Assembly (NCBI RefSeq): GCF_000607165.1
Contig: NZ_JFZG01000003.1
Span: forward strand, 248,001 to 312,000
Source of the DNA: Ralstonia pickettii
Lineage (GTDB): Bacteria; Pseudomonadota; Gammaproteobacteria; Burkholderiales; Burkholderiaceae
Direction of reading: 5' to 3'
Length of the DNA stretch: 64,000 nt
This document shows positions 7,843 to 59,771 of this stretch, piece after piece. The notes under the pieces are model-generated. The model did not search any database. It was not told the DNA's origin and worked only from the letters and a program-made list of their open reading frames with translations. Position 1 is the first letter of the stretch; every line of letters starts with the position of its first letter. The translations under genes and the position numbers were made by a program.

Positions 7843-7864
7843 ACACACATTCCACGGAGACACC

Positions 7865-9068: not shown

Positions 9069-9182
9069 TGCCGGTCGCCTTGGTGCGCGCTATGTAGTCC
9101 ATCCAGAATCGCATCGCCGACGGCGCGCTTGACGATTGTCGGAGTGCGTCCGTCTGTGGGGCCCAGCGCGTGCAGGCGTGTC

Positions 9183-11288: not shown

Positions 11289-11360
11289 TGATTTCCACTT
11301 TTTCCAATCGATGCGATGTCGGCGGTGCGAGCGTATTCGGGTCGCGTTGGCATTGATTGC

Positions 11361-14554: not shown

Positions 14555-15298
14555 TTAAGGCATGATCTGCGTTTGATGCGGTACGCCGGCACCGTAATCG
14601 TTCATCGACGTGTAATGCAGTTCCAGCGGGCCTGTGGGCAACGTTGCCAAGCTCTTCAAGGCGAAACGAAAAGTGGCGTTAGGCGCAACCATTCCCACAC
14701 CGCCTTCCTCTGTCCGTCCGTCGTGCTGCAATCGGACTTCAGTCAGCGACACATGGTATGGGCTGGTGTTCTGGCATTCGAGCGTATAGGCGCCGGAACT
14801 CTCGCGTATCAGCTTCCATGTGAGCTGTTCAGCGGCGCTATCCGGATCGCCGTGTAGACCGCTGGGCCGGAAAAAAATCTTGATGCGCGTGCGGAACGCG
14901 ACTTGCAATTGATTGTGCTCGTCACCAGGGCGTGCACTGGGCGGAATATCCAGGACATTCAAATAGAACACGGATTCGCGGTCAACTGGCAGGGGCTCTT
15001 TCAGATAAACCAGACGGAGCGTCTGGCCCTTGCCCGGTTCGACGCGCGCGAGCGGGGGGGTCAGCATGAACGGCGCAGCGCTCTCTTCGGGCGATTCGTT
15101 GGCATTGCCGCTATCGATCCAAGCCTGCATCAGAGCGGGGCGATCTCCCTCGTTGGTGAGTTTGACGCTCACTTCACGCTGTTCGGCCGGGTAGATGACT
15201 CGCGTCCCGGAAATGACGACGTTGGCGTGGGCGCTTGCCGAAAGCAATGCACCGAGTAAATAAAGGGCCGCAAGAGAATGGCGCGTTAAAAAGTTCAT
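14555..15298 (-). CDS. Periplasmic fimbrial chaperone
   Basis: 247-residue PapD-family chaperone. The signal peptide ends LLSASAHA near residue 25. The first immunoglobulin-like domain has SGTRVIYPAEQREVSVKL, DRPALMQAWID and the G1-strand block PPLARVEPGKGQTLRLVY with the conserved basic residue for subunit C-termini. EPLPVDRESVFYLNVLDIPP is the family signature. The second domain closes near LELHYTSMNDYG. It follows the major pilin gene across a hairpin-bearing 51-base gap and should cap pilins before delivery to the usher. Confidence 0.93.
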   Translation of the reverse strand: MNFLTRHSLAALYLLGALLSASAHANVVISGTRVIYPAEQREVSVKLTNEGDRPALMQAWIDSGNANESPEESAAPFMLTPPLARVEPGKGQTLRLVYLKEPLPVDRESVFYLNVLDIPPSARPGDEHNQLQVAFRTRIKIFFRPSGLHGDPDSAAEQLTWKLIRESSGAYTLECQNTSPYHVSLTEVRLQHDGRTEEGGVGMVAPNATFRFALKSLATLPTGPLELHYTSMNDYGAGVPHQTQIMP

Positions 15299-43684: not shown

Positions 43685-45595
43685 ATGACGTACGAACTTC
43701 TGAACACCATCGACGATCCGGCCGACCTGCGCCGACTGGACCGCCGCCAACTCGGGCCGCTGGCCAACGAGCTGCGCGCCTTCGTGCTCGATTCCGTCTC
43801 TCAAACGGGCGGGCACCTGTCGTCGAATCTGGGCACGGTCGAACTGACCATCGCGCTGCACTACGTCTTCAACACGCCGGAAGACCGCATCGTGTGGGAC
43901 GTCGGTCACCAGAGCTATCCGCACAAGATTCTGACTGGCCGCCGTGACCAGATGGGCTCGCTGCGCCAGTTGGACGGCATCTCCGGCTTCCCGCGCCGCA
44001 GCGAGAGCCCGTATGACACCTTCGGCACCGCGCACTCGTCCACGTCGATTTCGGCTGCGCTGGGCATGGCCCTGGGCGCCAAGACCAAGGGCGAAGACCG
44101 CGTCGCCATTGCCGTGATTGGCGATGGTGCGATGAGCGCCGGCATGGCCTTCGAGGCGATGAACAACGCGGGCGTCTATAAAGACCTGCCGCTGGTGGTC
44201 GTGCTGAACGACAACGACATGTCGATCTCGCCGCCGGTGGGGGCGTTGAACCGCTATCTGGCGCGCCTCATGAGCGGGCAGTTCTACGCGGCCACCAAGA
44301 AAGGCGTTGAGAAGCTGCTGTCGGTGGCGCCGCCGGTGCTCGAGTTTGCCAAGCGCTTCGAGGAACACACCAAAGGCATGTTCGTGCCGGCCACGATGTT
44401 TGAGGAGTTCGGCTTCAACTACATCGGCCCGATCGACGGACATGATCTCGAATCGCTCGTGCCGACGCTGCAGAACATCCGCCAGCGCGCGCGCGAAGGC
44501 GGTGGCCCGCAGTTCCTCCACGTCGTTACCAAGAAGGGCCAGGGCTACAAGCTGGCCGAGGCTGATCCGATCCTTTATCACGGCCCGGGCAAGTTCAATC
44601 CGCAAGAGGGCATCAAACCTTCCGGGCGCCCGGCAAAGGTGACTTACACACAAGTGTTCGGCCAATGGCTGTGCGATATGGCGGCGGCCGACAAGCGGCT
44701 GGTGGGTATCACGCCGGCCATGCGCGAAGGCTCCGGGATGGTGGAGTTCGAGCAGCGCTTTCCGGATCGCTATTACGACGTCGGCATCGCCGAGCAGCAC
44801 GCCGTCACCTTTGCAGGCGGCTTGGCGTGCGAGGGGTTGAAGCCTGTTGTTGCCATCTATTCGACGTTCCTGCAGCGCGGCTATGACCAGTTGATCCACG
44901 ACGTCGCACTGCAGAACCTGCCGGTGGTGTTTGCGCTGGACCGCGCCGGTCTGGTCGGTGCAGACGGCGCCACGCACGCAGGGGCTTATGACATTGCCTA
45001 CCTGCGTTGTATCCCCAACATGATGGTGATGACGCCGGCCGACGAGAACGAATGCCGCCAGCTGTTGAGCACCGCGTTCGCGCAGGACTGCCCGACAGCA
45101 GTGCGCTATCCGCGTGGTGCCGGCACGGGCGTGGCGGTGCAGCCGACGCTGGAGCCGCTGCCGTTGGGCAAGGCTGAAGTGCGTCGCGCTTCCACGGCTC
45201 CGGCAGGCCAGCGCGTGGCGATTCTGGCGTTTGGTTCAATGGTTGCCCCGGCTTCGGCAGCGGCTGAGCGTTTGGACGCGACCGTCGTCAACATGCGCTT
45301 CGTCAAGCCGCTCGATGTGGCCTGCGTGCTGGAAATGGCCCGCACGCACGATTACGTGGTCACCGTGGAGGAAGGCTGCATGATGGGCGGTGCAGGCAGC
45401 GCCTGCCTGGAAGCGCTGGCTGCCGCAGGTGTCGCTACGCCGGTAATGCAGCTCGGCCTGCCCGACCGCTTTGTCGACCACGGCGATCACGCTGCGCTAC
45501 TGGCGCAATGCGGGCTGGATGCCAACGGCATCCTCGCCTCCATCCGTGAGCGTTTTGCCGTACAACCGCGCGCTGCAGCCCCGCGCGTCGCCTGA
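43685..45595 (+). CDS. dxs: 1-deoxy-D-xylulose-5-phosphate synthase
   Basis: 636-residue thiamine-diphosphate enzyme, first step of the MEP isoprenoid pathway. The TPP motif is [20 protein letters not shown] near residue 150, the start has [17 protein letters not shown], and the transketolase central block is [26 protein letters not shown] is in the C-terminal part. Length is typical. Follows ispA in the same direction. Confidence 0.98.
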
Positions 45596-45846
45596 GTCAC
45601 CTTTGGCTTTCGACTCATAGGCAGAATCAATCACCCGTATTGCATCCACGGGTATGAGTAGTTGACTGCAGAGGTAGGAAATTTCTTTTACACTCCGCCA
45701 GTCTTATTTGTGAATTGTGTGCGCAGTCGCGGGATTGGCCGATTCGATCACTTGAGGGGTGGTCACCGTCAGCCAGGTTCCGCGGTTTCACACTCGTTGC
45801 GTGCCGGCCGACTGCGATGGCCGGGCGACCGTAAAGGAAACCGATC

Positions 45847-46653
45847 ATGAACGATATGAACCCAGCTTTCGCGATGCCGGACGTGCAGTCCAGCCACGAT
45901 ACCCGCCAGATCCCCATTCAGCGCGTTGGCGTGCGCGGCGTGCGTTACCCGATGTCGCTGCAGACCCCCTCGGGCGTGCAGAACACCGTCGGCACGTACA
46001 ACCTCGATGTGCATCTTCCGGCCGACCAGAAGGGCACGCACATGTCGCGCTTCGTCGCGCTGCTCGAAGAAGAGCGCGAGCCGCTGAATCTGGCACAGTT
46101 CCAGTTGCTGCTGGAAAAGATGCTGGAGAAGCTCGAAGCCGACGCCGGCCGCATCGAAGTCCACTTCCCGTATTTCGTCAGCAAGACCGCCCCGGTGTCG
46201 GGCGTGCAGTCGCTGATGGACTATGAAGTGACGATGATTGGCGAAGTGCGCGACGGCCACACCAAGGTCCGCGTCAAGGCGCTGGTGCCCGTGACGAGTC
46301 TGTGCCCGTGCTCGAAGAAGATCTCGCAGTACGGCGCGCACAACCAGCGCTCGCACATCACGATCGACGCCGAGCTGGCCGCCGATACGCCGGTCGAATC
46401 GCTCATTCGCATGGCCGAAGAAGAAGCATCGTGCGAACTGTGGGGCCTGCTCAAGCGCCCGGACGAGAAGTTCGTGACCGAGCGTGCATACGAAAACCCC
46501 AAGTTCGTGGAAGACCTTGTGCGCGATATCGCCATGCGCCTGAACCAGGACGACCGCATCGTCGCCTACACGCTGGAAGCCGAGAATTTCGAGTCGATCC
46601 ACAACCACAGCGCCTATGCGCTGATCGAGCGCGACAAGCGCACCGATAAGTAA
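45847..46653 (+). CDS. folE2: GTP cyclohydrolase FolE2 (GCYH-IB)
   Basis: 268-residue alternative GTP cyclohydrolase I that starts folate and queuosine synthesis and, in the family, is not strictly zinc-dependent. The N-terminus contains [20 protein letters not shown], and the cysteine cluster is [20 protein letters not shown] with the active cysteine. AAAGGAAACC precedes the ATG. It stands apart from dxs by 251 bases of regulatory-looking sequence. A zinc-dependent FolE probably exists elsewhere. Confidence 0.95.
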
Positions 46654-46671
46654 TCGACGCTGCGTCCAAAG

Positions 46672-46700
46672 AAAAAGCCGCTCCACCGAGCGGCTTTTTT
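46672..46700. terminator. Intrinsic terminator after folE2
   Basis: AAAAAGCCGCTC and GAGCGGCTTTTTT arms with a 4-base CACC loop. It abuts the tsaD stop and serves both converging genes. Confidence 0.9.
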
Positions 46701-47743
46701 CATGCTTGCTGGATACGGATGTCTTCGAGGTCCCAGCGTGGTGTAACGCCGTAGCCGTAGCCGTCCTGCACCTGGGTGGGGTCAGCCTGCAGCCGCATTG
46801 CGCCGGCAAAAGCGATCATCGCGCCGTTGTCGGTGCAGAACTGCAGGTCGGGGTAATAGACGCGCAGGCCGCGCTTTTTGCCCTCGGCGTTCAGGCCATC
46901 GCGCAACTGGCGGTTGGCGCCCACGCCACCCGCCACGACAATGCGCTTGAGGCCATGTTCGCGTGCCGCGCGCAGCGTCTTCTTGACGAGCACTTCGACG
47001 ATGGCGTCGACAAACGCGCGGGCAAGGTCGGCGCGCGGCTGGTAGCAGGTCTCGCTGTCGGTCAGGTTGAGCTTGCGCACTTGTGTGAGCACCGCGGTCT
47101 TGAGGCCCGCGAACGAGAAATCGAAGTTGCCCGAATGGAGCATCGGCCGAGGCAGGTCGAATACGCCCGGGTTGCCGAATTCGGCCAGGCGCGACACGGC
47201 CGGGCCGCCCGGATAGCCGAGGCCGAGCAGCTTGGCGGTCTTGTCGAAGGCTTCGCCCGCGGCGTCGTCGAGCGTCTCTCCAAGCAGCGTGTACTGGCCG
47301 ACGGCATCAACGCGCATCAGCTGCGTATGCCCGCCCGAGACGAGCAGCGCCAGGAACGGAAACTCAGGCCGGTCTGCCTCCAGCAGGGGCGAAAGCAGAT
47401 GCCCCTCCAGGTGATGCACGCCCACCAGCGGTTTGCCGAGCGCAAACGCCAGCGCATTCGCCACCGAGGCGCCCACCAGCAGCGCGCCGGCCAGCCCCGG
47501 GCCTTTTGTATAGGCAATGGCGTCAATGTCCGCGCGCGTGGCGCCGGCCTTGCCGAGCACCTCTTCCAGCAGCGGAATCACGCGGCGGATGTGATCGCGC
47601 GAGGCCAGCTCGGGCACTACACCGCCATATTCGCGGTGCATGGCGATCTGCGAATACAGCGCATGCGCGCGCAGGCCAGCCGCCGTGTCATACAGGGCGA
47701 CGCCGGTTTCGTCACAGGAGGATTCGATGCCGAGGACCAGCAT
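46700..47743 (-). CDS. tsaD: tRNA N6-adenosine threonylcarbamoyltransferase
   Basis: 347-residue ATPase-fold enzyme that makes t6A37 in tRNAs reading ANN codons, with TsaB and TsaE. The N-terminus is [20 protein letters not shown], and metal-binding histidines are in [22 protein letters not shown] and [14 protein letters not shown] are further signatures. A longer frame starts at 47794, but the ATG at 47743 gives the conserved beginning. It diverges from the YhiN-type flavoprotein. Confidence 0.96.
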
Positions 47744-47838
47744 GGCAAGCGGGAGTGAGGAATTGCAATGGGAAGGCCGCCGAAGATAGCACAAGTTAAA
47801 ATGCGCGGTTTCTTCAAGAATAGGGCGGCGCAGCCATC

Positions 47839-49062
47839 ATGATGCGGTGCGATGTAGCGGTGATCGGCGCGGGCGCGGCCGGAATGATGTGCGCGGCGGT
47901 GGCCGGGCAGCGCGGCGCCCGCGTTGTGCTGATCGATCACGCGACGAAACTGGCCGAAAAGATTCGCATCTCCGGCGGTGGGCGCTGCAACTTCACGAAC
48001 GTCAACGCGGGGCCGGCCAACTACCTGTCGAACAACCCGCATTTCAGCCGTTCGGCGCTGGCGCGGTACACGGCCCAGGACTTCATCAGCCTCGTTTCCA
48101 GCTACCGCATCCCGTATCACGAGAAGCACAAAGGCCAGCTCTTCTGCGACGACAGCGCCGAAGACATCATCCGTATGCTCGAAACGGAATGCGAGCGGGG
48201 CAATGTGATCTGGCGAACCGGTTGCTCCATCGCCGAAGTTGGCAAGGACGGCGAGGGCTATCGCCTGTCGACCAGCGCGGGCGAGATCGTCGCCAACAAG
48301 GTAGTGATTGCCACAGGCGGCCTGTCCATCCCCAAGATCGGCGCGACGGATTTTGGGTATCGCATTGCACGGCAGTTTGGGTTGAAGATCGTGGAGACGC
48401 ATCCGGCGCTGGTGCCGCTCACCTTCAATGCCGAGCATTGGGCGCCGTTCTCGGTGTTGTCCGGTGTGTCGATGGAGGTGGACGTGTCCGTTGCGCAGCC
48501 TGCGGGCAAGGGCGGTCGCAAGGGCGGCGCCACGACGTTCCGCGAAGACTTGCTGCTTACCCATCGCGGGTTGTCCGGCCCAGCCGTGCTGCAGATCTCC
48601 AGCTTCTGGAATGCAGGTCAGCCGCTTGTCATCGATCTGCTGCCGGACGCTGACGCCGCGCAATGGCTGTGCGATGAGAAGTTGGGCTCACGCAAGCAGC
48701 TCGGGACGGTGCTGGCGCAGCGCTTGCCGGAACGCGTCGCGCAGGCGTGGTGCGCCACGCACGGTGCCAACCCGCAGGCGCCGATTGCCGAGTTGCCGGA
48801 CAAGGTGCTGCGCGTGCTGGGCGGCGCGCTCAACCGCTGGGAGCTGACGCCTTCCGGCAGTGAGGGCTATCGCAAGGCCGAAGTGACGCGCGGTGGGGTC
48901 GATACGCGGGCGCTGTCCTCCGCCACCATGGAGGCGCAATCCGTACCCGGCCTGTACTTCATCGGCGAGGTGGTCGACGTGACGGGCTGGCTTGGCGGCT
49001 ATAACTTCCAGTGGGCGTGGGCCTCGGCCGTGGCGGCGGGGGAGGCAGCCTCCGCCCGCTGA
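47839..49062 (+). CDS. HI0933/YhiN-family flavoprotein
   Basis: 407-residue FAD/NAD(P)-binding protein. The dinucleotide motif is DVAVIGAGAAGMMCAAVAGQ, followed by ISGGGRCNFTNVNAGP, the family hallmark. NKVVIATGGLSIPKIGATDF and GLYFIGEVVDVTGWLGGYNF close the FAD domain. A beta-rich insertion lies between (about 190-330). Catalytic role is unknown. Two adjacent ATGs exist at 47839 and 47842. Downstream are the macromolecular synthesis genes. Confidence 0.88.
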   Translation: MMRCDVAVIGAGAAGMMCAAVAGQRGARVVLIDHATKLAEKIRISGGGRCNFTNVNAGPANYLSNNPHFSRSALARYTAQDFISLVSSYRIPYHEKHKGQLFCDDSAEDIIRMLETECERGNVIWRTGCSIAEVGKDGEGYRLSTSAGEIVANKVVIATGGLSIPKIGATDFGYRIARQFGLKIVETHPALVPLTFNAEHWAPFSVLSGVSMEVDVSVAQPAGKGGRKGGATTFREDLLLTHRGLSGPAVLQISSFWNAGQPLVIDLLPDADAAQWLCDEKLGSRKQLGTVLAQRLPERVAQAWCATHGANPQAPIAELPDKVLRVLGGALNRWELTPSGSEGYRKAEVTRGGVDTRALSSATMEAQSVPGLYFIGEVVDVTGWLGGYNFQWAWASAVAAGEAASAR

Positions 49063-49133
49063 TCCCCCACGGATCGGTCCTGGAACTGTTTGGGTTCTGT
49101 GCTACGATCAGTGATCCATTTTTCAAAGTTTGC

Positions 49134-49165
49134 AACCCGCTGGACCAGCCGTCCGAGCGGGTTTT
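49134..49165 (+). terminator. Terminator-like hairpin before yqeY
   Basis: AACCCGCT (49134-49141) and AGCGGGTT (49156-49163) with a 14-base loop and TTTT. It ends 20 bases before the yqeY start, so it could be an attenuator. Confidence 0.55.
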
Positions 49166-49185
49166 GCCGTTTATCGGAGTTCGGA

Positions 49186-49644
49186 ATGTCGCAGTTGTCG
49201 CTCAAGGCACAGATCACGGAAGACATGAAGGCCGCCATGCGCGCCAAGGAAACAGATCGTCTGGGCACGATCCGTCTGTTGCAGGCTGCCATCAAGCAGC
49301 GCGAGGTGGACGAACGCATCGAACTGGATGACGCCGCCGTGCTGGCTGTGATCGACAAGATGCTCAAGCAGCGCAAGGATTCCATCACCGCATTCGAGCA
49401 AGCCGGGCGTGACGATCTCGTCGCCAAGGAAACGGCGGAGGTGGCCGTGCTGCAGGTCTATATGCCCGCGCAACTGTCGGAAGCCGAAGTTGACGCCGCG
49501 GTGCGTGACGCCGTGGCCAAGGCTGGTGCAACTGGCCCGCAAGACATGGGCAAGGTGATGGGCATCCTGAAGCCGGCCCTGGCCGGCCGCGCCGACATGA
49601 CGCAAGTCTCGGCACGCGTGAAGGCCGCCCTGGCGGGCGCCTGA
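49186..49644 (+). CDS. yqeY: YqeY/GatB-like protein
   Basis: 152-residue protein with homology to the tRNA-binding tail of GatB. It starts MSQLSLKAQITEDMKAAMRA and contains RLGTIRLLQAAIKQREVDER and KDSITAFEQAGRDDLVAKE, the two-helix family core, then a C-terminal three-helix domain. It usually lies between rpsU and dnaG; here rpsU is absent from that slot. CGGAG lies 6-7 bases before the ATG. Role in amidotransferase function is not proven. Confidence 0.93.
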   Translation: MSQLSLKAQITEDMKAAMRAKETDRLGTIRLLQAAIKQREVDERIELDDAAVLAVIDKMLKQRKDSITAFEQAGRDDLVAKETAEVAVLQVYMPAQLSEAEVDAAVRDAVAKAGATGPQDMGKVMGILKPALAGRADMTQVSARVKAALAGA

Positions 49645-49684
49645 ATCCCCTCCACATTCGCAGCATCCAAGGGGCGCACCCCGC

Positions 49685-51496
49685 GTGATCCCGCAGCCGT
49701 TCATTGACGACCTGCTCAACCGCGTCGATATCGTCGACGTGGTGGGCCGTTACGTGCAGTTGAAGAAGGGCGGCGCCAACTTCATGGGGTTATGCCCCTT
49801 CCATAACGAGAAGTCGCCGTCGTTCTCGGTGTCGCCCACCAAGCAGTTCTATCACTGCTTCGGCTGCGGCGCGCACGGCTCGGCCATCGGTTTCCTGATG
49901 GAGTTTTCTGGGCAGTCGTACGTCGAGGCCATCAAGGACCTCGCGCAGTCCGTCGGCATGGTGGTACCTGAAGAGCGCGGTGGCATGCCGCCCGCCGCCC
50001 GCGCCGAGCAGCAAGCCAAGACCGTCGCGTTGGGTGACGTCATGGCCCGCGCCTGCGAGCACTACCGCAAGCAATTGCGCAGCGCACCCAACGCCATCCA
50101 ATACCTCAAAGGCCGCGGCCTGACCGGCGAGATTGCTGCGCATTTCGGCCTCGGCTATGCGCCCGACGATTGGCAATCGCTCGAAGCCGTGTTCGGTCCG
50201 TATCGCGAAGACGCCACCGCAGCACCGCTCATCGAAGCCGGGCTCGTCATCGAAAGCGAGAAGACCAGCGCCGATGGCTCGCACCGCCGGTACGACCGCT
50301 TTCGCGATCGCATCATGTTCCCCATCCGCAATACCAAGGGCGTGGTGATCGGCTTCGGTGGCCGGGTACTAGGGCAGGGCGAACCGAAATATCTCAACTC
50401 CCCCGAAACGCCGCTGTTCAGCAAGGGAACCGAGCTGTACGGCCTGTTCGAGGCGCGCAACGCCATCCGCGAGTTCGACTACGTGCTGGTCGTGGAAGGC
50501 TACATGGACGTGGTCGCGCTGGCGCAACTCGGGTTTGCCAATGCGGTGGCAACGCTGGGCACGGCCTGTACACCGATCCACGTGCAGAAGCTGCTGCGGC
50601 AGGTCGATACCGTCATCTTTTCGTTTGACGGGGACAGTGCGGGGCGCCGGGCTGCACGCCGTGCGCTCGAAGCCTGCCTGCCGCACGCCACCGACAACAA
50701 GACCATCAAGTTCCTCTTTTTGCCCTCCGAGCACGATCCGGACAGTTTCGTGCGCGAAGAGGGCACCGAAGCCTTTGCCCGTGAAGTGCACAACGCCATG
50801 CCGCTGTCGCGCTTTCTGCTGCAGGCCGTGACCGAGGATCTCGACCTCCGTCAACCCGAGGGACGTGCCCGCGCGCAATACGAAGCCAAGCCGCTGCTGA
50901 GTGCCATGCCCGCCGGCGGCCTGCGCCTGCAGATCGTGCGCGGCCTGGCCGACATGACCGGTACCACGCCTGCCGACATCGAAGCGCTGTGTGGCCTTCG
51001 CAGCGACCCGGCCCAAGCGGGGCGCATGACGCAGAAGCGGCCCCGCGTGGCGCGCACTGCACCCACGGCGCTGGAGCAGAAGGTGCTGCGCTTGCTGATG
51101 CGCTATCCCGCGCTGGCGGCGCGGCTCGACACCGATGCCCGCACCCAGTTGACTGCGCCCCAATTGCCCCAAAGTGAGATCTTGGCAGGGTTGCTGGCCG
51201 AATGCGATGCCGTGGGTCCAGAGGTGCACTTTGGGGCCTTTGTCGAGCGTCTGGGTCAGACTCCCTATGCCGAAGCCTTTGCCGGGCTGCGTACCGCCGT
51301 GCTTCAGGACGACATCGAACTGGAGCCGGCCATTTCCGAATTTGATACCGCCGTACAAAAGATGCTCGCCGAGCCACTTAAGCGCGAGCTGGAGCTGTTA
51401 CAGCGCAAGATGGAAGCCGGCCATGCTGGCGACGAAGACAAGGAGCGCATGCGCTGGTTGGTGGGCGAAATCAGCCGCCGTCGGCAGCTCGTGTAG
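49685..51496 (+). CDS. dnaG: DNA primase
   Basis: 603-residue primase that lays RNA primers at the replication fork. The zinc ribbon is C37-x2-H40 in CPFHNEK and C58-x2-C61 in YHCFGCGAHG. The TOPRIM domain has VVEGYMDVVALAQLG and FSFDGDSAGRRAARRAL. The C-terminal helicase-binding domain (about 450-600) is present. The start is GTG at 49685 with AAGGGG about ten bases upstream, giving MIPQPFIDDLLNRVDIVDVV. Between yqeY and rpoD as in the macromolecular synthesis operon. Confidence 0.97.
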   Translation: MIPQPFIDDLLNRVDIVDVVGRYVQLKKGGANFMGLCPFHNEKSPSFSVSPTKQFYHCFGCGAHGSAIGFLMEFSGQSYVEAIKDLAQSVGMVVPEERGGMPPAARAEQQAKTVALGDVMARACEHYRKQLRSAPNAIQYLKGRGLTGEIAAHFGLGYAPDDWQSLEAVFGPYREDATAAPLIEAGLVIESEKTSADGSHRRYDRFRDRIMFPIRNTKGVVIGFGGRVLGQGEPKYLNSPETPLFSKGTELYGLFEARNAIREFDYVLVVEGYMDVVALAQLGFANAVATLGTACTPIHVQKLLRQVDTVIFSFDGDSAGRRAARRALEACLPHATDNKTIKFLFLPSEHDPDSFVREEGTEAFAREVHNAMPLSRFLLQAVTEDLDLRQPEGRARAQYEAKPLLSAMPAGGLRLQIVRGLADMTGTTPADIEALCGLRSDPAQAGRMTQKRPRVARTAPTALEQKVLRLLMRYPALAARLDTDARTQLTAPQLPQSEILAGLLAECDAVGPEVHFGAFVERLGQTPYAEAFAGLRTAVLQDDIELEPAISEFDTAVQKMLAEPLKRELELLQRKMEAGHAGDEDKERMRWLVGEISRRRQLV

Positions 51497-51583
51497 CGCA
51501 TAAGCCGCAGAGCCAAGCTCCAAGCGGGGCGGGCAATTGCGGGTAGCCCCTTGATTTTTCAGGCGAAAACCCGATTTTCGTTT

Positions 51584-51598
51584 AGACCGGCTTGGTCT
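51584..51598. promoter_or_regulatory. Palindrome upstream of rpoD -10
   Basis: AGACC-GGCTT-GGTCT, a perfect 5-base inverted repeat 7 bases before the candidate -10; possible operator. Confidence 0.35.
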
Positions 51599-51602
51599 GG
51601 CG

Positions 51603-51611
51603 TGCTAGAAT
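51603..51611 (+). promoter_or_regulatory. Extended -10 promoter candidate for rpoD
   Basis: TGCTAGAAT (TG-N-TAGAAT) about 50 bases before the rpoD start. No -35 consensus precedes it. Confidence 0.5.
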
Positions 51612-51665
51612 AGCCGGTTTGGATTGCAAGTCCTTTTTCCCATTTTTGGGGGAGTGAGCGTGCCC

Positions 51666-54302
51666 ATGGTGAAGGTGAAGACCTCCGCGAAGGCCGGTTC
51701 CAAGGCCAGTCCTGCTTCTGTTTCTGCCAAGCGATCCTCATCGGCGCGCGGCTCCGGAGGAGGAAAGACACCAGCGGGAACGGCGAAAGTCGCGAATGGT
51801 CGGACCCATATGGGGCAGGCAGCATCGACAGGGGTGAAGGCCACTGCGCCGGCAGAGACGGGGAAAACCCAGCCGCGCCAGACCGCCGATATCGCCGTCG
51901 CAGCCAAGACTGTCAAACCGACAGCGCGCACAAAGGGCGCGATCCAATCTTCAACCTCAGGCAAGGTCTCGACGTCGATGAGCACGAGCGCCAGACCTGG
52001 CGGCACAGCCGCTTCCGTCGCACTCAAGGGCAAGACAACCACCGTGGCGAAATCGAAAGTTACCGAAGTCGAGAGCAAGCAGACCACTGCCAGCGCAAGC
52101 GCAACCAAGACGGGTACCGCTCGTACCAGCACCGCAGCCAAGCCAGCTAAGGCAACCGCGGAAGACACCAAGCGCACCGCCCAGGCAGAGGCCACCCCCA
52201 CAACTCCTCCTGCGCCCCGCGCCGAGGCAGCAGCCGAGCCCAAGAAGCGCGGCCGCAAGCCCAAGGCAGAGACGCAGGCAGACGACGACAGCAGCACGGA
52301 CGTGACTGAAGAATTTGACACCCCCGCCGCTCCGGCACCGAAAACCGAAAAGCTGAAGGCCCGTGACCGCAAGGCCAAGGAAAAAGCCCTGCTCAAGGAA
52401 TTCGCTGCCTCGCAGCAAGGCGGTTCGGAAGAAGAGCTCGAGGCCCGCCGCCAGAAGCTCAAGGCGCTGATCAAGCTGGGCAAATCGCGCGGCTACCTGA
52501 CCTACGCTGAAATCAACGACCATCTCCCCGACGACATGGTCGACGTGGAGTCGCTGGAAACGTTGGTCGCCACGCTCAACGACATCGGCGTTGCCGTGTA
52601 TGAGCAGGCGCCGGACGCTGAAACGCTGCTCCTGAACGACAACGCACCTTCCGTGACCACGGAAGAAGAGGCTGAAGAAGAAGCTGAAGCCGCGCTGTCG
52701 ACGGTTGACTCCGAATTCGGCCGCACGACCGACCCGGTGCGCATGTACATGCGCGAAATGGGCACGGTCGAGCTGCTGACGCGCGAAGGCGAAATTGTGA
52801 TCGCCAAGCGCATCGAAGCCGGCCTGAAGGACATGGTCATGGCGATCTCGGCGTGCCCGGTGACCATCTCCGAAATCCTCGCCATGGGCGAGCGCGTTGC
52901 CAACGACGAAGCCAAGATCGACGAGTACATCGATGGCTTGATCGACCCGAACGCTGAAGCCGATGCAGCCGCTGCTGCTGAGGAAGAAGAGGAATTCGAA
53001 GAAGAGGAGGCCGCAGAAGAGGGCGACGAAGAGGAAGACGAGGACGATGAAGGTGCTGGCGCTGCCGCAGCCTCGGCCCGTCAACTCGAAGAGCTCAAGC
53101 AGGCCGCGCTGGTCAAGTTTGGTGTGATCGGCGAGCAGTTCGACAAGATGCGTCGTGCTTTCGAGAAGGAAGGCTACAAGTCCAAGCCTTACGTGAAGGC
53201 ACAGGAAGCCATCCAGGCCGAGCTGATGACGATCCGCTTCACGGCACGCAACGTCGAGCGCCTGTGCGACACGCTGCGCGGCCAGGTGGACGAAGTGCGC
53301 AAGCTCGAGCGCGCCATCCTGAACATCGTGGTCGACAAGTGTGGCATGCCGCGCGGCGATTTCGTTGCGCGCTTCCCGGGCAACGAGACCAACCTGAAGT
53401 GGATCGAGACCGTGGTGGCTGACGGTAAGCCGTACAGCACCATCGTCGAGCGTAATGTGCCGGCCGTGCACGAACTGCAGCAAAAGTTGATCGACCTGCA
53501 GGCGCGCGTGGTGCTGCCGCTGACCGAACTGAAGGACGTCAACCGCAAGATGTCGGAAGGCGAGCGCCGCGCCCGTGAGGCCAAGCGTGAAATGACCGAG
53601 GCCAACCTGCGTCTGGTGATCTCGATCGCCAAGAAGTACACGAACCGCGGTCTGCAGTTCCTCGACCTGATCCAGGAAGGCAACATCGGCCTGATGAAGG
53701 CAGTGGACAAGTTCGAATACCGTCGCGGCTACAAGTTCTCGACGTACGCCACGTGGTGGATCCGTCAGGCCATCACGCGTTCGATCGCCGACCAGGCGCG
53801 CACCATCCGTATTCCGGTGCACATGATCGAGACGATCAACAAGATGAACCGCATCTCGCGTCAGATCCTGCAGGAAACCGGCAACGAGCCGGATCCGGCA
53901 ACGCTGGCCGAGAAGATGGAGATGCCGGAAGACAAGATCCGCAAGATCATGAAGATCGCGAAGGAGCCGATCTCCATGGAAACGCCGATCGGTGACGACG
54001 ACGACTCCCATCTGGGCGATTTCATCGAGGACACGAACACGCTCGCCCCGGCCGAAGCGGCGCTGCATGGCTCCATGCGCGGCGTGGTGAAGGACGTGCT
54101 CGATTCGCTGACGCCGCGCGAAGCCAAGGTGCTGCGCATGCGCTTCGGTATCGAAATGAGCACCGACCACACGCTGGAAGAAGTCGGCAAGCAGTTCGAC
54201 GTGACCCGCGAGCGTATCCGTCAGATCGAGGCGAAGGCACTGCGCAAGCTGCGCCATCCGAGCCGTTCCGACAAGCTGAAGAGCTTCCTCGAGGGCAGCT
54301 GA
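51666..54302 (+). CDS. rpoD: Housekeeping sigma factor RpoD (sigma-70) with long N-terminal extension
   Basis: 878 residues. The first 200 are a lysine/serine/threonine/alanine-rich tail ([20 protein letters not shown]) before region 1.1 starts near [20 protein letters not shown]. Region 1.2 has [20 protein letters not shown]. An acidic run lies near residue 440. Region 2 is [20 protein letters not shown] and [20 protein letters not shown]; region 4.2 is [23 protein letters not shown] at 51666 is assumed; GTGs at 51655 and 51660 lie closer to GGGGGAG and would add two to four residues. Confidence 0.96.
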
Positions 54303-54329
54303 TTCTGTAGCGAAGCAGGCGATTTTCCG

Positions 54330-54347
54330 AGTGGGCTCGCGCCCACT
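54330..54347 (+). other. Small hairpin after rpoD
   Basis: AGTGGGC-TCGC-GCCCACT, perfect 7-base stem 28 bases past the rpoD stop, followed by TAAAAT at 54354-54359. It may protect the 3' end or flank a tRNA promoter. Confidence 0.45.
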
Positions 54348-54370
54348 TTCAGGTAAAATCCCGCACCAGG

Positions 54371-54399
54371 CCCGGCCTAAGCGCCGGGTCTCTTTTTTT
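54371..54399 (+). terminator. Intrinsic terminator after rpoD
   Basis: CCCGGC and GCCGGG arms around CTAAGC, followed by a run of seven T at 54393-54399. It ends only 11 bases before the tRNA-like gene. Confidence 0.8.
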
Positions 54400-54410
54400 C
54401 CCGTTTCACA

Positions 54411-54495
54411 GGGCCGGACGCCGTGCTGGTTGCAGGCAGCGGACTCATAATCCGCCTCCGAAAGGACACCGTGGGTTCGAATCCCACCCGGCCCA
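54411..54495 (+). tRNA. Class II tRNA-like gene with CAU anticodon
   Basis: An 85-base cloverleaf. Acceptor stem GGGCCGG (54411-54417) pairs with CCGGCCC (54488-54494). D stem GCC (54420-54422) pairs with GGC (54435-54437), with G18 G19 in the loop. The anticodon stem 54439-54443/54451-54455 carries loop CTCATAA, anticodon CAT at 54446-54448. The variable arm is long: TCC-GAAA-GGA inside 54456-54470. T arm GTGGG-TTCGAAT-CCCAC is perfect. Position 8 is A and 14 is T, a swap of the normal U8-A14 pair. CCA is not encoded (CTA follows). Canonical CAU tRNAs (Met, Ile2) have short variable arms; amino acid identity is unknown. Confidence 0.75.
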
Positions 54496-54498
54496 CTA

Positions 54499-55238
54499 TC
54501 TTTTCCTCTCCCGCCTTTTTCCCTTCATCCGCGTTTGCATGCCGATTTTATCTGGCAGCTTTCTCTCGCCTTGCTTGCGTTATTGTCGCGGGATCGTATT
54601 TTGCTACCCCAGTGAGTCTTGGCGAAATATATTCATTTCGAAATAATTGAATAACACCGCATTGCGTTGGCATTCCCCCCGACCGGAGGGGGGAGTTTAA
54701 AACGCTTCAAACGAAACGGTTTCATTCCCTCGTTTGAAAAGCTGTCAAACCGCGCCGCGCCTGCTTGCGCGGGGGATTGCAGCCGCTGTTTTGAATGAAA
54801 TCTCTATTTACTTCATACCCTGGGCAGACCATAGTTTCGGCCATAACGATAAGTAAATAGCCAGTAGCGTATCCTTCGGAGACACAGGATGTTACGCATT
54901 CAAAACGGGCCCTTCCGACATTCCGCTTCTGCGCGTGCCCCCGCGCGTCATCGCCATCGTCGTCACTGCAGCAGCGGTGGCGAGGCTCGTCCACGCTAGC
55001 AGCATTACCTCGATTGTTCTTGGGATCGGCACCCAGCCGATCTGCGTGATACCCGGCAAACCATCGGGTAACGCGGCCAAAGCTCGTCCGTCGTTTTTGT
55101 AGTTTGCAGGTCGATCTGCCGACGGGGCAGGTCGTGCGCTGTCGGCTGTCGTTTGCCGGCAGGCGGGGGTATTGACCGGCTGTTGCACACATTCGCCGGC
55201 CCAAAACACAACAAGTTCCAAAACGTGAGGAGACAACC
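54499..55238. other. AT-rich spacer with inverted repeats
   Basis: 740 bases with no convincing gene. It begins AT-rich after the tRNA-like gene. There is a stem TCCCCCC/GGGGGGA (54674-54680, 54688-54694) with a 7-base loop, and a perfect 9-base repeat TTCAAACGA/TCGTTTGAA (54706-54714, 54730-54738) with a 15-base loop. A minus-strand frame of 172 codons covers most of the rest but has no coding signature. Confidence 0.5.
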
Positions 55239-56834
55239 ATGGGTAGTCGACGTCATCTTTTTGTTGTCATGGCAACCAGTTGCATAGTGACCATGCCGTT
55301 TATCGGCGGGTGCGGTGGGGCGGATGACCCCGGCTCGTCGGATGTTGCACAGTGTTCGGGCAGCTCTTGCCCGCCTAGCGGAGCGAACACCACGCCCAGC
55401 ACGCCGACCAGTCTGTGCCCGGCCGCGCTGGACTACACGACCACGTATACCGGCGGCTCGGGCAGCGGCGAGTACATCAAGGTCAAGTTCGACACGAGTA
55501 AGAACACGTACCAGATGCAGTTCCTGGAGTCGTCTGTGCCGACTTCGGCGGGCCAGGTCAACACGACCCGCAAGGGGTTGACCATCGATGGCACGTTCGT
55601 TCATCCGACCAACTTGCCGACCCCCGAGCAGAACCGCTGCGCTTTCGTGCTGCAGTCTGGCAAGACGGCGGACAGTAGCTACGCCATCACCGTCAATCCG
55701 CAAGACCCGCCGATGCTGTTTGTCGGCCAGGGCATCGTGGGGGGCGGCATTCCGGGAGCGACGATCCAATTTGCTGGCATCCAGCCGATTCCGGGCGTCG
55801 TGATTGGCGCAGTACCGTCGCGCACGTTCGATTTCTATCCTTTCCTGGGCTTCTCCGAGACGGTGACGGATTTCTCGCAGGTCGCGGGACGCTACAACCA
55901 GGTCGGCGTGCACGTCACGCCCACAGGATCGGGCAGCCAGACCTCGGCACCGCAAGGCTGGCAGCCTGACGCTGTCAACTGGACGCAAACGTTGAATGCC
56001 GACGGCACGTGTACCGCGGAAGGCATCGACTATTCGTGCCACACGACGGGTACGCCCTGGACGCTGCGTCAGAACACCGATGGCTCGCAGGACAATGTGT
56101 TCGTCAGCAACCCGACCAGCAGCAGCGTGCCGTATCCGTATGTCGGACAGGTCTCGCCGCTGGTGCTGCTGGCGCCAAGCCAGGCCAAGGGCATCCTCAT
56201 CGCCGGCAAGCTCAACGGGCAAGTGGTGCCGGTGGTGATCCGTGTCGGCTACTCGCATAGCGATGCGACGAACTTGCTGGCTTCGGTGGCGGACGACCAG
56301 ATCGGTATCTCGATCCTGTCACCGGCGACGGCGATCCCGGCCAACGCGCTCAAGGGTGGCTATGTTGGGGCGACCAGCGGCTCGGCTTGCGGCGTGGTCA
56401 CCAACAACGGTCCGAGCGGTGCGCCTGCCAGTGGCAACGGCTTGAACGCGACGATCGATCACCCGGAACTGTCGGGCTCCTTTAGCGGTGGCTTCTTCCA
56501 CGCCAATGCCGGCAACTGTAGCGACGGCACGGCCGTATCGACGCTGGCCGCCAACTACACCTCCACGCTGTTCCAGAACGGCACCGCGGCCTTCATCAAC
56601 CCGCTCACCTCGCGTGTGACGGCGCAGTTCGGCCTGGACTACACGCAAAGCGCCCCGGGCAAGTTGATCGTGACCGCGCAGAACGACTTCAACGCGCAAG
56701 GCGCCAGCGGCAATGTTGCGCTGTTCAAGGCGGGCGACACCGGCGTGGCGGTCAAGGTGGGCAACGTGTACGCGATGCTCATGAACAACAACAAGTACAA
56801 CCCGTTCTTCACGGTCGGCGCATTCGTCCAGTGA
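55239..56834 (+). CDS. DUF2957 family lipoprotein, first copy
   Basis: 531-residue predicted lipoprotein (signal ends FIGGC, acylated C25) with a serine/proline/threonine linker. The body has the repeat-like family block YTGGSGSGEYIKVKFDTSKN and TYQMQFLESSVP, and ends NPFFTVGAFVQ. It contains GQGIVGGGIPGATIQFAGI, shared with the next gene. A strong GAGGAG site precedes the ATG. Function is unknown; family members occur in Burkholderiales and a surface location is inferred. First of a four-gene same-strand set. Confidence 0.8.
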   Translation: MGSRRHLFVVMATSCIVTMPFIGGCGGADDPGSSDVAQCSGSSCPPSGANTTPSTPTSLCPAALDYTTTYTGGSGSGEYIKVKFDTSKNTYQMQFLESSVPTSAGQVNTTRKGLTIDGTFVHPTNLPTPEQNRCAFVLQSGKTADSSYAITVNPQDPPMLFVGQGIVGGGIPGATIQFAGIQPIPGVVIGAVPSRTFDFYPFLGFSETVTDFSQVAGRYNQVGVHVTPTGSGSQTSAPQGWQPDAVNWTQTLNADGTCTAEGIDYSCHTTGTPWTLRQNTDGSQDNVFVSNPTSSSVPYPYVGQVSPLVLLAPSQAKGILIAGKLNGQVVPVVIRVGYSHSDATNLLASVADDQIGISILSPATAIPANALKGGYVGATSGSACGVVTNNGPSGAPASGNGLNATIDHPELSGSFSGGFFHANAGNCSDGTAVSTLAANYTSTLFQNGTAAFINPLTSRVTAQFGLDYTQSAPGKLIVTAQNDFNAQGASGNVALFKAGDTGVAVKVGNVYAMLMNNNKYNPFFTVGAFVQ

Positions 56835-56924
56835 AGCGCGCAACAACGAAACCACATGCGGCGGCGTGCGTGACCTGTGCACGCAGCGCTGCCGCGGCTG
56901 AACAACAACATGGAGGAGACGCAA

Positions 56925-58184
56925 ATGCAATGGCGTAAATGGTTGGTCGTGCTCGCGTGCGCGCCGATGGTGACAGCTTGCGGAGGTGGCGGAGATGACT
57001 CGCCGGCTCCGGTGATCCAGCGCCTGTGTCCGCAGGCCATCGACTTCAACACCGTGTTCACCGGTGGGTCGGGCTCGGGTGAACTGGTGAAGGTGCAGCT
57101 CGACACAACGAAGATGACGTACCAGATCACGTATCTGGCCTCGCCGATTCCGGTCAAGACGGGCACCGTTGCGCCCACGCGCGATACGGCCCCTAACAAT
57201 GTGCAGACCGGCACGCTCACGCAGGAAACGGCGCTGCCGACCGAGAAGCTGAACCAGTGCGCATTCCGCCTGAATAACGCAAGCCTTGATCCGAGCCGGC
57301 CTGCGCGGTTCTTCCTCGGTCAGGGCGTGCTGGGCGGCACGATTCCAGGGGCGACGATCCAGTTCGACGGCATTGTTGGCGTGGGCAAGATTCCGCAGAC
57401 CACGTTCCCGTACTACCCGTTCATCAGCTTCTCGAACACCGAGACCGATCTGAACAAGATTGCGGGCAACTACAACCAGCTCGGCTACCACCAGGTGCCG
57501 TCGCAGAACTTCTCGCAGCAGGCGGTCGATGCGCGTTTCACCATCAACGCGGACGGCACCTACACCGAGTGCGACAACCTGGGCGTGAAGAACGGCGGGG
57601 CCTGCCTGACGTCAAGCGCAACAGTCAACCAGAAGCTGACGCTGCGCAGCGATGCGCCGGCCTTCACCACGCTGAACTATCAGCCGCAGGTGCCGGCAAC
57701 GGTGTCGTCGCTGGATCCGTCCAAGGCGGGCAAGGGCGTGATGATCGTGGGCAAGCTGTATGGCCAGCTTGTGCCGATCTTCATTCGCGTGGGCGCGGCC
57801 AACTCCGATCTGACGGCTGGCCCCCCGGTGGCGGATGACGAGTCCGGCATTTCGATGATGGCGCCGGTCGGCAACATCGCGCAGGGCTCGCAAGACGGCG
57901 AATACACGGGTGTGGACAGCACGTTCAACTACCGCGCCACGGCGCTGGTGGGTGCGCAGGCCACGATGCTCGATCCGTTCAATGCGTCGCAGGCAGCGCT
58001 GGCGCGACCGCTGAACCTCGACTTCACGCAGACCGTCCCGGGTGTGATCCGCACCACGCAGACGAGCGCCCCGGCCGGCTCGGCCCCCACGGGCAAGCTG
58101 ATCTTCACCGGCAAAACCTTCGGCTTCCTGGACATGAGCGATACGAAGAACCCGTACTTCACGGTGGGCGCCTTCGTGCAGTGA
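56925..58184 (+). CDS. DUF2957 family lipoprotein, second copy
   Basis: 419-residue paralogue of the preceding protein, starting at 56925 after GGAGGAG. The lipoprotein signal ends MVTAC (C19). Shared blocks: FTGGSGSGELVKVQLDTTKM, TYQITYLASPIP, LGQGVLGGTIPGATIQFDGI, and the same C-terminal NPYFTVGAFVQ. It is about 110 residues shorter because it lacks part of the C-terminal insertion of copy one. A tandem duplication that then diverged is the simplest reading. Function unknown. Confidence 0.8.
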   Translation: MQWRKWLVVLACAPMVTACGGGGDDSPAPVIQRLCPQAIDFNTVFTGGSGSGELVKVQLDTTKMTYQITYLASPIPVKTGTVAPTRDTAPNNVQTGTLTQETALPTEKLNQCAFRLNNASLDPSRPARFFLGQGVLGGTIPGATIQFDGIVGVGKIPQTTFPYYPFISFSNTETDLNKIAGNYNQLGYHQVPSQNFSQQAVDARFTINADGTYTECDNLGVKNGGACLTSSATVNQKLTLRSDAPAFTTLNYQPQVPATVSSLDPSKAGKGVMIVGKLYGQLVPIFIRVGAANSDLTAGPPVADDESGISMMAPVGNIAQGSQDGEYTGVDSTFNYRATALVGAQATMLDPFNASQAALARPLNLDFTQTVPGVIRTTQTSAPAGSAPTGKLIFTGKTFGFLDMSDTKNPYFTVGAFVQ

Positions 58185-58258
58185 CGTTTCCGGAATAACA
58201 CGCCACGGGGCGCGGCACAGACAACCGCGCTCCGCTCAGAACAACAGGAGGAAGCATC

Positions 58259-59083
58259 ATGAAACAACTGACTGTCGCATTGGTGGCGGCCTGCGCATCC
58301 GCGGGTGCCATGGCGCAGCAGGCCGGTGACAACGTGGCGACGGTGGGCTGGTTCCACATCATGCCGCAGGACTCGAGCAACAACCTGACCACCAGCGTGA
58401 TCAATGCGCCGATCAATGATCCGCTACGCTTGCCGGGCAGCTTTACGTCGCCCAACAGCGGGCTGCGCGTGAGCAACGCCAACACGCTCGGCCTGACGCT
58501 CACGCACTTCTTTACCGACAACATTGCGCTGACCACGATTGCCGGCGTGCCACCCGAGTTCAAGTTGACTGGGCATGGCGTGATCCGCGCGCCCGGGCCC
58601 GCAGGTGCACTCGGACACGTTGATCTGGACGATCCGTCCAATCAGCCGGCTGTGCGCAAGGCGCGCCAATGGAGCCCCGGGGTCATCCTGCAGTGGTACT
58701 TCGGGCATGCGCAATCGACGTTCCGTCCGTTCGTGGGTGTGGGCGTGGTCTACAGCTTCTTCACCAACATCGAGCTGAATCCGTACTTTGCGGCGGCGGT
58801 GAATCGCGAGCTGGGCAGCGTGCTGGCAGCGGGGGCGGGTAAGCCGGGGCCGACCTATGTCGAAGGGAAATCGTCCGCCTCGTGGGCGCCGATCTTCAAC
58901 CTCGGGGCGAGCTACGCGATCAACAAGCAATGGGCCTTGACGGCAACGGTGTCGTACCTGCCGCTCAAGACCGAGGCGGCAACCGTCATCAAGGCGGCGG
59001 ACGGTACCACGCTGGCTACCACCAAGACCACGCTCAAGGCCAATCCGATCATCACGTTCGTCGGGGTGTCGTACAAGTTTTAG
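58259..59083 (+). CDS. OmpW-family outer-membrane protein
   Basis: 274-residue protein with signal peptide (VALVAACASAGAMAQQ) and an eight-strand barrel pattern. VGWFHIMPQDSSNNLTT is the OmpW start, GLTLTHFFTDNIALTTIAGV and RPFVGVGVVYSFFTN follow, and the C-terminus ends in F (TFVGVSYKF) as barrel proteins do. OmpW/AlkL proteins pass small hydrophobic molecules across the outer membrane. An AGGAGG ribosome site is present. It lies 74 bases after the second DUF2957 gene. Confidence 0.88.
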   Translation: MKQLTVALVAACASAGAMAQQAGDNVATVGWFHIMPQDSSNNLTTSVINAPINDPLRLPGSFTSPNSGLRVSNANTLGLTLTHFFTDNIALTTIAGVPPEFKLTGHGVIRAPGPAGALGHVDLDDPSNQPAVRKARQWSPGVILQWYFGHAQSTFRPFVGVGVVYSFFTNIELNPYFAAAVNRELGSVLAAGAGKPGPTYVEGKSSASWAPIFNLGASYAINKQWALTATVSYLPLKTEAATVIKAADGTTLATTKTTLKANPIITFVGVSYKF

Positions 59084-59195
59084 CTGGGTGTCGGCTGTCT
59101 GCGCCTGGCTAATTGGCGCGGCGTGAATCGAGCGGGAACCGGTTTGCGCCGCATTCTTAAGGCGGTTTCTACCGTCAGTTCTAGTGAGGCAATAA

Positions 59196-59687
59196 ATGAG
59201 CACACGTAAAGTCGTATCTCTTGCAGTTGCACTCGCACTTGCCACCGTAGCAGCCACACCCGCACTTGCCGTCACCGTTTCGCGTGTCGATGGTCAAGCC
59301 ATGAACCCGAACGGCGAGCCGTTCTCGGTCACCGGTGCGACCACGTTGTCCAAGGGCTCCATCAGCGCCAATTGCACGGCGACCTTCACGGGGACGATCA
59401 CGCCTACGGGCATCGTCAACATCACGTCCACATCGTTTACCGGCGGCGGGACGTGCGGCCTCATCTCGGGAACGACCCCGTGGACCGGCCAGGCCGACAG
59501 CGCCACCCAGCTGTCGATCAACAACGCAGGGGTCAGCGTGTTCCTGCTGGGTAACTGTGGCCCGAGCAAGGTCGTGACCACTTGGAACGATCCGAACTCG
59601 TCGCTCACGTTCACCAATGCACTGCTCACGCCGGACTGCACGGTGAGCGGCACGGTGGTATCGACGCCGAAGTTCCACGTGCAGTAA
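59196..59687 (+). CDS. PraB-like secreted protein
   Basis: 163-residue exported protein. The signal peptide ends VAATPALA near residue 25. The mature part is beta-rich, threonine/serine heavy, and has four cysteines (ANCTATFTG, GGGTCGLISG, LLGNCGPSK, LTPDCTVSG), perhaps two disulfides. The pattern of CxxTFTG, GLISGTTPW and SLTFTNALL resembles the alkane-oxidation activator PraA/PraB of Pseudomonas; the match is from memory. If right, it would help handle hydrophobic substrates alongside OmpW. Other secreted functions are possible. Confidence 0.6.
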   Translation: MSTRKVVSLAVALALATVAATPALAVTVSRVDGQAMNPNGEPFSVTGATTLSKGSISANCTATFTGTITPTGIVNITSTSFTGGGTCGLISGTTPWTGQADSATQLSINNAGVSVFLLGNCGPSKVVTTWNDPNSSLTFTNALLTPDCTVSGTVVSTPKFHVQ

Positions 59688-59743
59688 GCACGTTCCCGAT
59701 TGACGGGCGGTTGCGCAGCCGCCGTCGATTGGTCTGAAGCATG

Positions 59744-59771
59744 GGCCCGGCATGTCGGGCCTTGTTTCTTT
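59744..59771 (+). terminator. Terminator after the PraB-like gene
   Basis: GGCCCG (59744-59749) and CGGGCC (59756-59761) arms, loop GCATGT, then TTGTTTCTTTT. Confidence 0.55.

Follow-up and report, generated by a model that had tools for sequence, protein, structure and literature searches.

The only tRNA gene in the window, as the whole analyzed stretch of 64,000 nt is termed here, is very probably that of tRNA-Ile2, which decodes AUA as isoleucine, here with a class II structure (probability roughly 0.86). This reading is considered very probable because the gene is the sole candidate for decoding AUA, shares the synteny of tRNA-Ile2, carries the determinants of TilS, and because AUA codons of this genome align mostly with isoleucine. 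Class II structure is taught as being limited to the tRNAs for leucine, serine, bacterial tyrosine and selenocysteine, and to our knowledge all known tRNA-Ile belong to class I. ARAGORN placed the 85-nt gene at 54411-54496 with the anticodon CAT, and the Rfam model RF00005 matched it with 46.7 bits, the gathering score being 29. This agrees with the earlier sequence-only reading, which had described a complete class II tRNA with CAU at 54411-54495. The score of 116.4 bits obtained with the covariance model R1 comes from a model that was itself built partly from this tRNA. The locus contains the following features:

51624..54302, plus strand: open reading frame (longest start) that we take to be rpoD (sigma-70) by sequence recognition; tRNA-Ile2 is usually located on its 3' side in the family
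54368..54391, plus strand: terminator-like hairpin and T run between rpoD and the tRNA, similar in aligned class I and class II siblings
54411..54495, plus strand: class II tRNA with a CAU anticodon, proposed tRNA-Ile2 (AUA decoder), from ARAGORN, RF00005 and model R1
54411..54417, plus strand: 5' strand of the acceptor stem, GGGCCGG, with its partner at 54488-54494 (CCGGCCC), including G3-C70, C4-G69 and C5-G68 (sequence; available part of PMC12514573)
54418, plus strand: A8, normally U8 (33 of 34 distinct full-length sequences)
54420..54437, plus strand: D arm GCC-GTGCTGGTTGCA-GGC with U14 at 54424, C21 at 54433 and a possible extended D stem (sequence, RNAfold, alignment)
54439..54455, plus strand: anticodon arm GCGGA-CTCATAA-TCCGC with CAU at 54446-54448, 16 of 17 positions identical to the class I tRNA-Ile2 of L146
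54457..54466, plus strand: class II variable arm TCC-GAAA-GGA within a 15-nt variable region (54456-54470), supported by covariation
54471..54487, plus strand: T arm GTGGG-TTCGAAT-CCCAC, its third pair changed from G-C to C-G in 9 of 37 distinct rows
54495..54498, plus strand: discriminator A73 followed by CTA instead of CCA (sequence; CCA is present in L117-L125)

The cloverleaf was recovered stem by stem as first described, with 7 bp in the acceptor, 3 bp in the D, 5 bp in the anticodon, 3 bp in the variable and 5 bp in the T stem. Its minimum free energy in RNAfold is -42.6 kcal/mol (z -3.46), and none of 200 shuffled sequences was equally stable. A fold with a short variable arm, which the sequence-only reading had named as counter-evidence, was not favored by RNAfold. 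The anticodon loop is that of a tRNA-Ile2, consisting of seven nucleotides (CTCATAA) with CAU, U33, A37 and A38. A class I tRNA has a variable loop of 4-5 nt, whereas the 15 nt found here include a co-varying 3-bp helix and agree with the limit of at least 10 nt that the available part of PMC7609411 gives for class II. The bases behind the proposed inverted 8-14 pair, A8 and U14, are real and conserved, but their pairing is one possible reading of the core only, since RNAfold prefers to lengthen the D stem by U14-A22, G15-C21 and C16-G20b, leaving G13 as a bulge. The absence of an encoded CCA also holds for this genome, where CTA is located at 54496-54498. However, CCA is encoded in nine other class II genomes of the genus (L117-L125), and its loss is therefore a peculiarity of this genome. 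The CTA might have arisen in this genome alone, or it might reflect an error of sequencing. The discriminator A, which had been likened to that of tRNA-Leu, is present but is also shared by the Ile and elongator Met tRNAs of this genome. No sigma-70-like promoter was matched in 54250-54600, which is a point against the tRNA-Ile2 reading.

The distribution of the gene was analyzed with R1, which was built from the window tRNA and four plasmid copies. Of the 398 family genomes sampled, 79 gave matches at E <= 1e-15; they belong to four of 25 genera, namely Ralstonia, Paraburkholderia, Trinickia and Cupriavidus, the copies of the latter often being located on plasmids. Among 399 genomes sampled from the order, scores above 100 bits were obtained only in the present genome (G000) and in G270, both belonging to this family, and the next score was 66 bits. 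In the 28 of these lower-scoring loci that were inspected (L089-L116), the match was due to a Leu, Ser or Tyr tRNA, with L090 as the one exception. Nine plasmid records contained at least 80% of the query, all of them from Cupriavidus; a query coverage of 80% was reached by none of the 641 phage records with some match (tRNA genes among the matches listed). Intact class II genes were observed on four Cupriavidus plasmids of 238-507 kb (L041-L044), two of which (L042 and L044) harbor them a few kb from replication/partition genes. A further Cupriavidus copy (L141, G765:C1) is not located beside rpoD and has a tRNA-Leu(GAG) about 0.9 kb upstream. As its contig is of chromosome size (4.7 Mb), not all Cupriavidus copies are plasmid-borne.

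Alignment A3, which was fitted to the structure, comprises 80 sequences, of which 37 are distinct and 34 distinct and full-length. Pairing holds in 99.2% of the cells of the 37 distinct sequences. Changes on both sides occur at six pairs of the variable, anticodon and T helices and in 62 cells, compared with 23.5 in shuffles that do not keep the relatedness of the sequences, none of 500 being as high. Four of five covariation measures were exceptional in this way (0-3 of 500 shuffles as high), and the fifth, further standard pair types, was unexceptional (65 of 500). Structures shifted by 1-3 columns gave at most two both-sided pairs. All three pairs of the variable arm are exchanged on both sides, with TCC/GGA in 16 of the 37 distinct rows and GGA/TCC in nearly all others, and the exchange is also visible in an ungapped plain alignment of five sequences. 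This bears out the claim that the long variable arm is a true helix. Pair 5-68 is C-G in 32 of the 37 rows and U-G in five. A8 is present in 33 of the 34 distinct full-length rows, the exception being the decayed copy L160, and U14 and C21 in all 34. This near-invariance indicates that the odd core is a kept feature and not the slip of one strain, and conservation across four genera together with co-varying helices indicates that the class II tRNA is not due to chance. Conservation beyond the strain, whose lack together with a missing transcript would have counted against the sequence-only reading, and covariation of the variable arm, which that reading had proposed as a check, both came out in favor of the gene.

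The window tRNA starts 108 bases past the rpoD stop codon. In four genomes of the same genus (G004, G005, G012 and G022; L146-L149) the window aligns on both flanks, and a class I tRNA-Ile2 is located at the same spot. In L147, positions 6-9543 correspond to window positions 44825-54398 at 90% identity and positions 9762-14914 to 54622-59770 at 84%. The class I tRNA of these four genomes bears the marks of tRNA-Ile2, and a similar terminator-like hairpin precedes it. Altogether rpoD precedes 21 class I loci from seven genera (L146-L149, L090, L206, L207, L214-L217, L418, L420-L426, L432 and L433, the last about 0.9 kb away), and also the interrupted class I loci L434 and L435. Some class I loci are positioned elsewhere, which counts against the tRNA-Ile2 reading: rpoD was not found beside L209, L419, L427, L428 and L436 within the stretch examined, L419 being a second class I copy on a 1.6-Mb replicon. 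For the class II loci in GTDB genomes, the end of rpoD lies about 93-324 bp upstream in 99 of 113 cases. Twelve of the other 14 belong to Cupriavidus, and L286 and L331 are within about 260 bases of the stretch edge, too near for rpoD to be visible there. At this one locus behind rpoD, the class II form may have taken the place of the short-armed class I tRNA-Ile2, or vice versa.

The present genome gave 49 matches to RF00005, and the other 48 each have an ARAGORN tRNA in place. Besides the class II gene, its AUN-box tRNAs are two fMet, one elongator Met and tRNA-Ile(GAU). No other AUA reader, neither a tRNA-Ile(UAU) nor a further CAU tRNA, was found among the 49 matches of this genome, the one with a full tRNA inventory, in model searches of a kind that miss intron-split genes and might miss a very divergent class I gene. 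Being the sole AUA candidate of the 49 matches, situated at the tRNA-Ile2 locus and equipped with the TilS determinants, the gene gives strong support to the specialized AUA tRNA that had been suggested as one option. No observation pointed to the regulatory tRNA that had been named as another. An odd tRNA-like gene on a 54-kb contig of the same genome (L062, G000:C28:47093-47166) scored 30.5 bits and has an ambiguous anticodon, which ARAGORN assigned to Lys or Stop.

Among 16 Ralstonia genomes, ten harbor the class II form, five the class I form, one neither and none both, as counted with search patterns that, in the nine class II genomes besides G000, would overlook certain class I types and, at the cut-off used, miss a second class I type (TTCGAAACC; L214-L217). 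The five class I genomes comprise four of one type and G006 of another, and the genome in which neither form was seen (G001) is 90% complete. A TilS phylogeny of the genus sets all ten class II genomes apart along one branch (support 94/95), and the class II/class I split is, as judged from this tree, a single change. In Paraburkholderia, of which 48 class II genomes were searched, 41 of the 43 among the matches listed are without a class I CAU match within two mismatches. Such a match is present in G633 and G764, in compact Gly-Ser-CAU tRNA arrays. Near-spacerless Gly(TCC)-Ser(TGA)-CAU arrays on 12-kb contigs of two Paraburkholderia genomes (L427:4118-4360 and L428:1094-1337) are possibly located on mobile elements.

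In Cupriavidus, class I is also present in 13 of 14 class II genomes. The class II tRNA is thus not the sole AUA reader there, and this counts against the tRNA-Ile2 reading, as does the fact that the other tRNA-Ile2 genes of this survey are all class I. In the fourteenth genome, G616, the class II gene is at rpoD and class I, as far as found, is represented by a 3' half only, 47.6 kb off. This half (L417, G616:C1, around position 5566) could be left over from the replaced gene or from an element that had inserted. In three class II-free genomes (G506, G519 and G440) an AUA reader was not found by the models and patterns. For the family as a whole, the idea that the two classes strictly exclude each other was given up, since Cupriavidus often has both. 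Exclusion is claimed only for the genus Ralstonia and the 41 of 43 Paraburkholderia genomes, because of Cupriavidus and because the patterns and models miss some class I types and intron-split genes.

According to the available part of PMC12514573, E. coli TilS relies on C4-G69 and C5-G68, while TilS of B. cenocepacia requires G3-C70 and is helped by the D loop; the MetRS of the same species favors tRNA-Met about 600-fold over tRNA-Ile2. The window tRNA contains all three of these pairs, and tilS is present in 16 of 16 Ralstonia genomes. In E. coli tRNA-Ile, the 12-23 pair is U12-A23. The available part of PMC9976931 lists as minor determinants of E. coli IleRS C4-G69, a 12-23 pair printed as U12-G23, and C29-G41. 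Only C4-G69 is found in the window tRNA, in which 12-23 is C-G and 29-41 is G-C. The presence of only one of the three determinants speaks against the tRNA-Ile2 reading, but class I siblings such as L146 also carry G29-C41. If the class II tRNA is expressed, as is presumed, TilS would recognize the CAU loop along with G3-C70, C4-G69 and C5-G68 and convert C34 to lysidine. Once modified, the tRNA would receive isoleucine from IleRS, be rejected by MetRS and be brought to AUA codons. SerRS, LeuRS and TyrRS should not charge it, given its 3-bp variable stem and the A8/U14/C21 core.

A CAU anticodon combined with A73 would also suit a second elongator tRNA-Met, the label ARAGORN gives, which would remain unmodified, be charged by MetRS and read AUG, with AUA left to something unseen. 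This is very improbable. A normal elongator Met tRNA is already encoded in the genome, and its acceptor (GGCGAAT) is matched at merely two of seven positions per strand, whereas G3-C70, C4-G69 and C5-G68 are shared with the sibling class I tRNA-Ile2. Furthermore, the gene sits at the Ile2 locus, and AUA would lose its only seen reader.

The meaning of AUA was assessed by comparing two 400-kb blocks of G000 with blocks of its class I sibling G005 (389 aligned pieces, 142,154 codons). A looser first test (n=61; Ile 33, Val 16, Met 5, Thr 4, Leu 1, Phe 1, Arg 1) placed AGG opposite Lys and was judged to be contaminated by non-coding frames. For this reason, frames with mainly synonymous change and high GC3 were used, and AUA codons with conserved neighbors were counted (63 of 89). 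Before the sequence was doubled, this filtered test gave Ile 24, Val 5, Thr 2, Leu 1, Phe 1 and Met 0 (n=33). In the full set, the 63 AUA codons of G000 are opposite Ile in 45 cases (AUA 31, AUC 10, AUU 4), Val in 8, Thr in 6, Met in 2, Leu in 1 and Phe in 1; Met, Leu and Ser together account for 3 of 63. The reverse control with 51 AUA codons of G005 yielded Ile 37, Met 6, Val 3, Leu 2, Ser 1, Thr 1 and Asn 1. As benchmarks, AUU is opposite Ile in 1078 of 1151 and AUG opposite Met in 3099 of 3339 cases. The lower fraction for AUA (45 of 63) weighs against the tRNA-Ile2 reading, but the class I control behaves alike (37 of 51), and in either genome conservation is lower at AUA than at AUU sites; the numbers are small. 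AUA usage per 1000 codons is 0.63 in G000 and 0.56 in G005. In these alignments, AUA positions look like isoleucine in the class II genome.

The same comparison undermines the missense tRNA that had been suggested earlier, considered here as a code-ambiguity tRNA charged with leucine or serine through its long arm in the manner of the nematode nev-tRNAs. The class II arm and A73 would allow this, and according to the available part of PMC4300185 leucine is attached in vitro to a nev-tRNA-Ile(UAU) that bears a V arm. However, AUA is opposite Leu in 1 of 63 cases and opposite Ser in none and aligns mostly with Ile, as in the class I sibling. The variable stem has 3 bp, A14 is replaced and no second AUA reader was seen that would keep fidelity. 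Such a tRNA is accordingly very unlikely.

The class II gene is also a target of integration. In G695, an integrase gene (PF00589, E 1.5e-29) is adjacent to it. About 35 kb away there is a 3' half that begins at the anticodon loop and carries the alternative form of the variable arm. A prophage-like insert of about 35 kb is located in the class II gene at this site (L429-L430, G695:C2), where the intact gene has GGA/TCC and the displaced 3' half TCC/GGA. This arrangement indicates that integrating elements can swap the 3' halves of the class II tRNA gene, and such elements may have created the class II form. A decayed class II copy was observed in Cupriavidus (L160:219-303, G711:C3, minus strand), with the loop CTCTAAA and an amber-type CTA, which ARAGORN called tRNA-Pyl; mismatches in its stems suggest a pseudogene. 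Three other Cupriavidus copies (L161, L162 and L163, from G514, G765 and G711) are damaged as well, one by a foreign 5' end, one by 17 additional bases around the D and anticodon arms and one by a variable arm that is 2 bases shorter. That the window gene itself is a silent remnant or an attachment site and no working tRNA is very unlikely, integration in G695 and the damaged Cupriavidus copies (L160-L163) notwithstanding, as the variable, anticodon and T helices change on both sides, 79 of 398 genomes have a copy and no other AUA reader was seen in G000.

Class I genes are interrupted as well. In L434-L436 the class I tRNA-Ile2 is split in the anticodon loop; the group I intron model RF00028 matched with sub-threshold E values of 3e-5 to 3e-3, none of the three loci giving a match at the gathering score. 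Group I introns in Burkholderia tRNA-Ile2 have already been published, as the available part of PMC8450103 documents. An odd G33 in the GCATAAT genes (L357-L360) was considered and rejected, since class I halves flank the insert in L434 and L436. The class I CAU 3' half at L209 (about 1501-1550, G446:C1), which has no recognizable 5' half directly upstream, might be an intron-split gene or a remnant. Class I CAU tRNAs with A8 were observed behind rpoD in genus g11 (L090:1501-1574, L425 and L426). Taken as a whole, it seems reasonably probable that a natural bacterial class II tRNA-Ile with a rebuilt core (A8/U14/C21 and possibly a bulged six-pair D arm) took over the essential AUA job in many species, perhaps via a class I tRNA like L090, and that its 3' halves were exchanged by elements cutting at the anticodon loop.

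Some soil and plant bacteria thus seem to read the rare AUA codon with a Leu/Ser-like tRNA, placed where close relatives keep an ordinary tRNA-Ile2. If the class II tRNA is indeed the sole AUA reader of many species, an essential isoacceptor can switch its structural class while the codon meaning is kept. The long arm would then serve as a natural experiment on the way in which TilS, IleRS and MetRS distinguish CAU tRNAs, and the presence of both forms at one locus in close species offers a way to test the features these enzymes read. The class II CAU frame may also serve as a CAU tRNA with an unusual body. For annotation, it is relevant that ARAGORN labels such class II genes tRNA-Met. No description of a class II bacterial tRNA-Ile was found in a full-text literature search of a partial collection. 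A study of CAT tRNAs in which the class II form could have been noted is reportedly that of Silva et al. 2006.

The closest known relative is the class I tRNA-Ile2 of Burkholderiaceae (L146; for B. cenocepacia, the available part of PMC12514573), with which the window tRNA shares CAU, the GGGCC start, the three TilS pairs and A73 and, in the case of L146, 16 of 17 anticodon-arm positions and the rpoD locus. In contrast, the variable loop of the class I form has only 5 nt, its core is U8/A14/A21 and its D stem has 4 bp. In the class II form, the variable region comprises 15 nt and includes a helix, the core is A8/U14/C21, and the D stem either has 3 bp or is extended and bulged. The L090-type CAU tRNA (g11: G134, G450 and G540) is likewise located behind rpoD with A8, and L090 is identical at 14 of 14 acceptor and 17 of 17 T-arm positions, but it has a short class I variable loop, A14 and another anticodon stem. 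Judging by these similarities, it is likely a sister or intermediate form of the class II tRNA. The nematode nev-tRNA-Ile(UAU) also combines a V arm with an isoleucine-type anticodon able to read AUA; according to the available part of PMC4300185 it differs in being eukaryotic, having UAU and accepting leucine in vitro, with no proteome mistranslation detected there. The class II CAU tRNA, unlike it, is apparently the sole AUA reader of its genome. A long variable arm is shared with tRNA-Ser, tRNA-Leu and bacterial tRNA-Tyr, and the D arm GCCGnGC..GGTTGnAGGCA resembles that of tRNA-Ser. The class II CAU tRNA differs from all three in its 3-bp variable stem, A8/U14, CAU and an Ile2-like acceptor, which matches those of the compared Ser, Leu and Tyr tRNAs of the same genome at 3-4 of 7 positions per strand. 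A tRNA-Ser would have a long variable stem, a Ser anticodon and G73, as in four tRNA-Ser of this genome, whereas a 3-bp stem, CAU and A73 are found here. The class II tRNAs named in the available part of PMC7609411 are those for Ser, Leu, Tyr and Sec. The allo-tRNAs and tRNA-Sec described there resemble the window tRNA in extending class II beyond Leu, Ser and Tyr and in the possible extended D stem, but they have a lengthened acceptor arm, whereas the window tRNA has an ordinary 7/5 branch.
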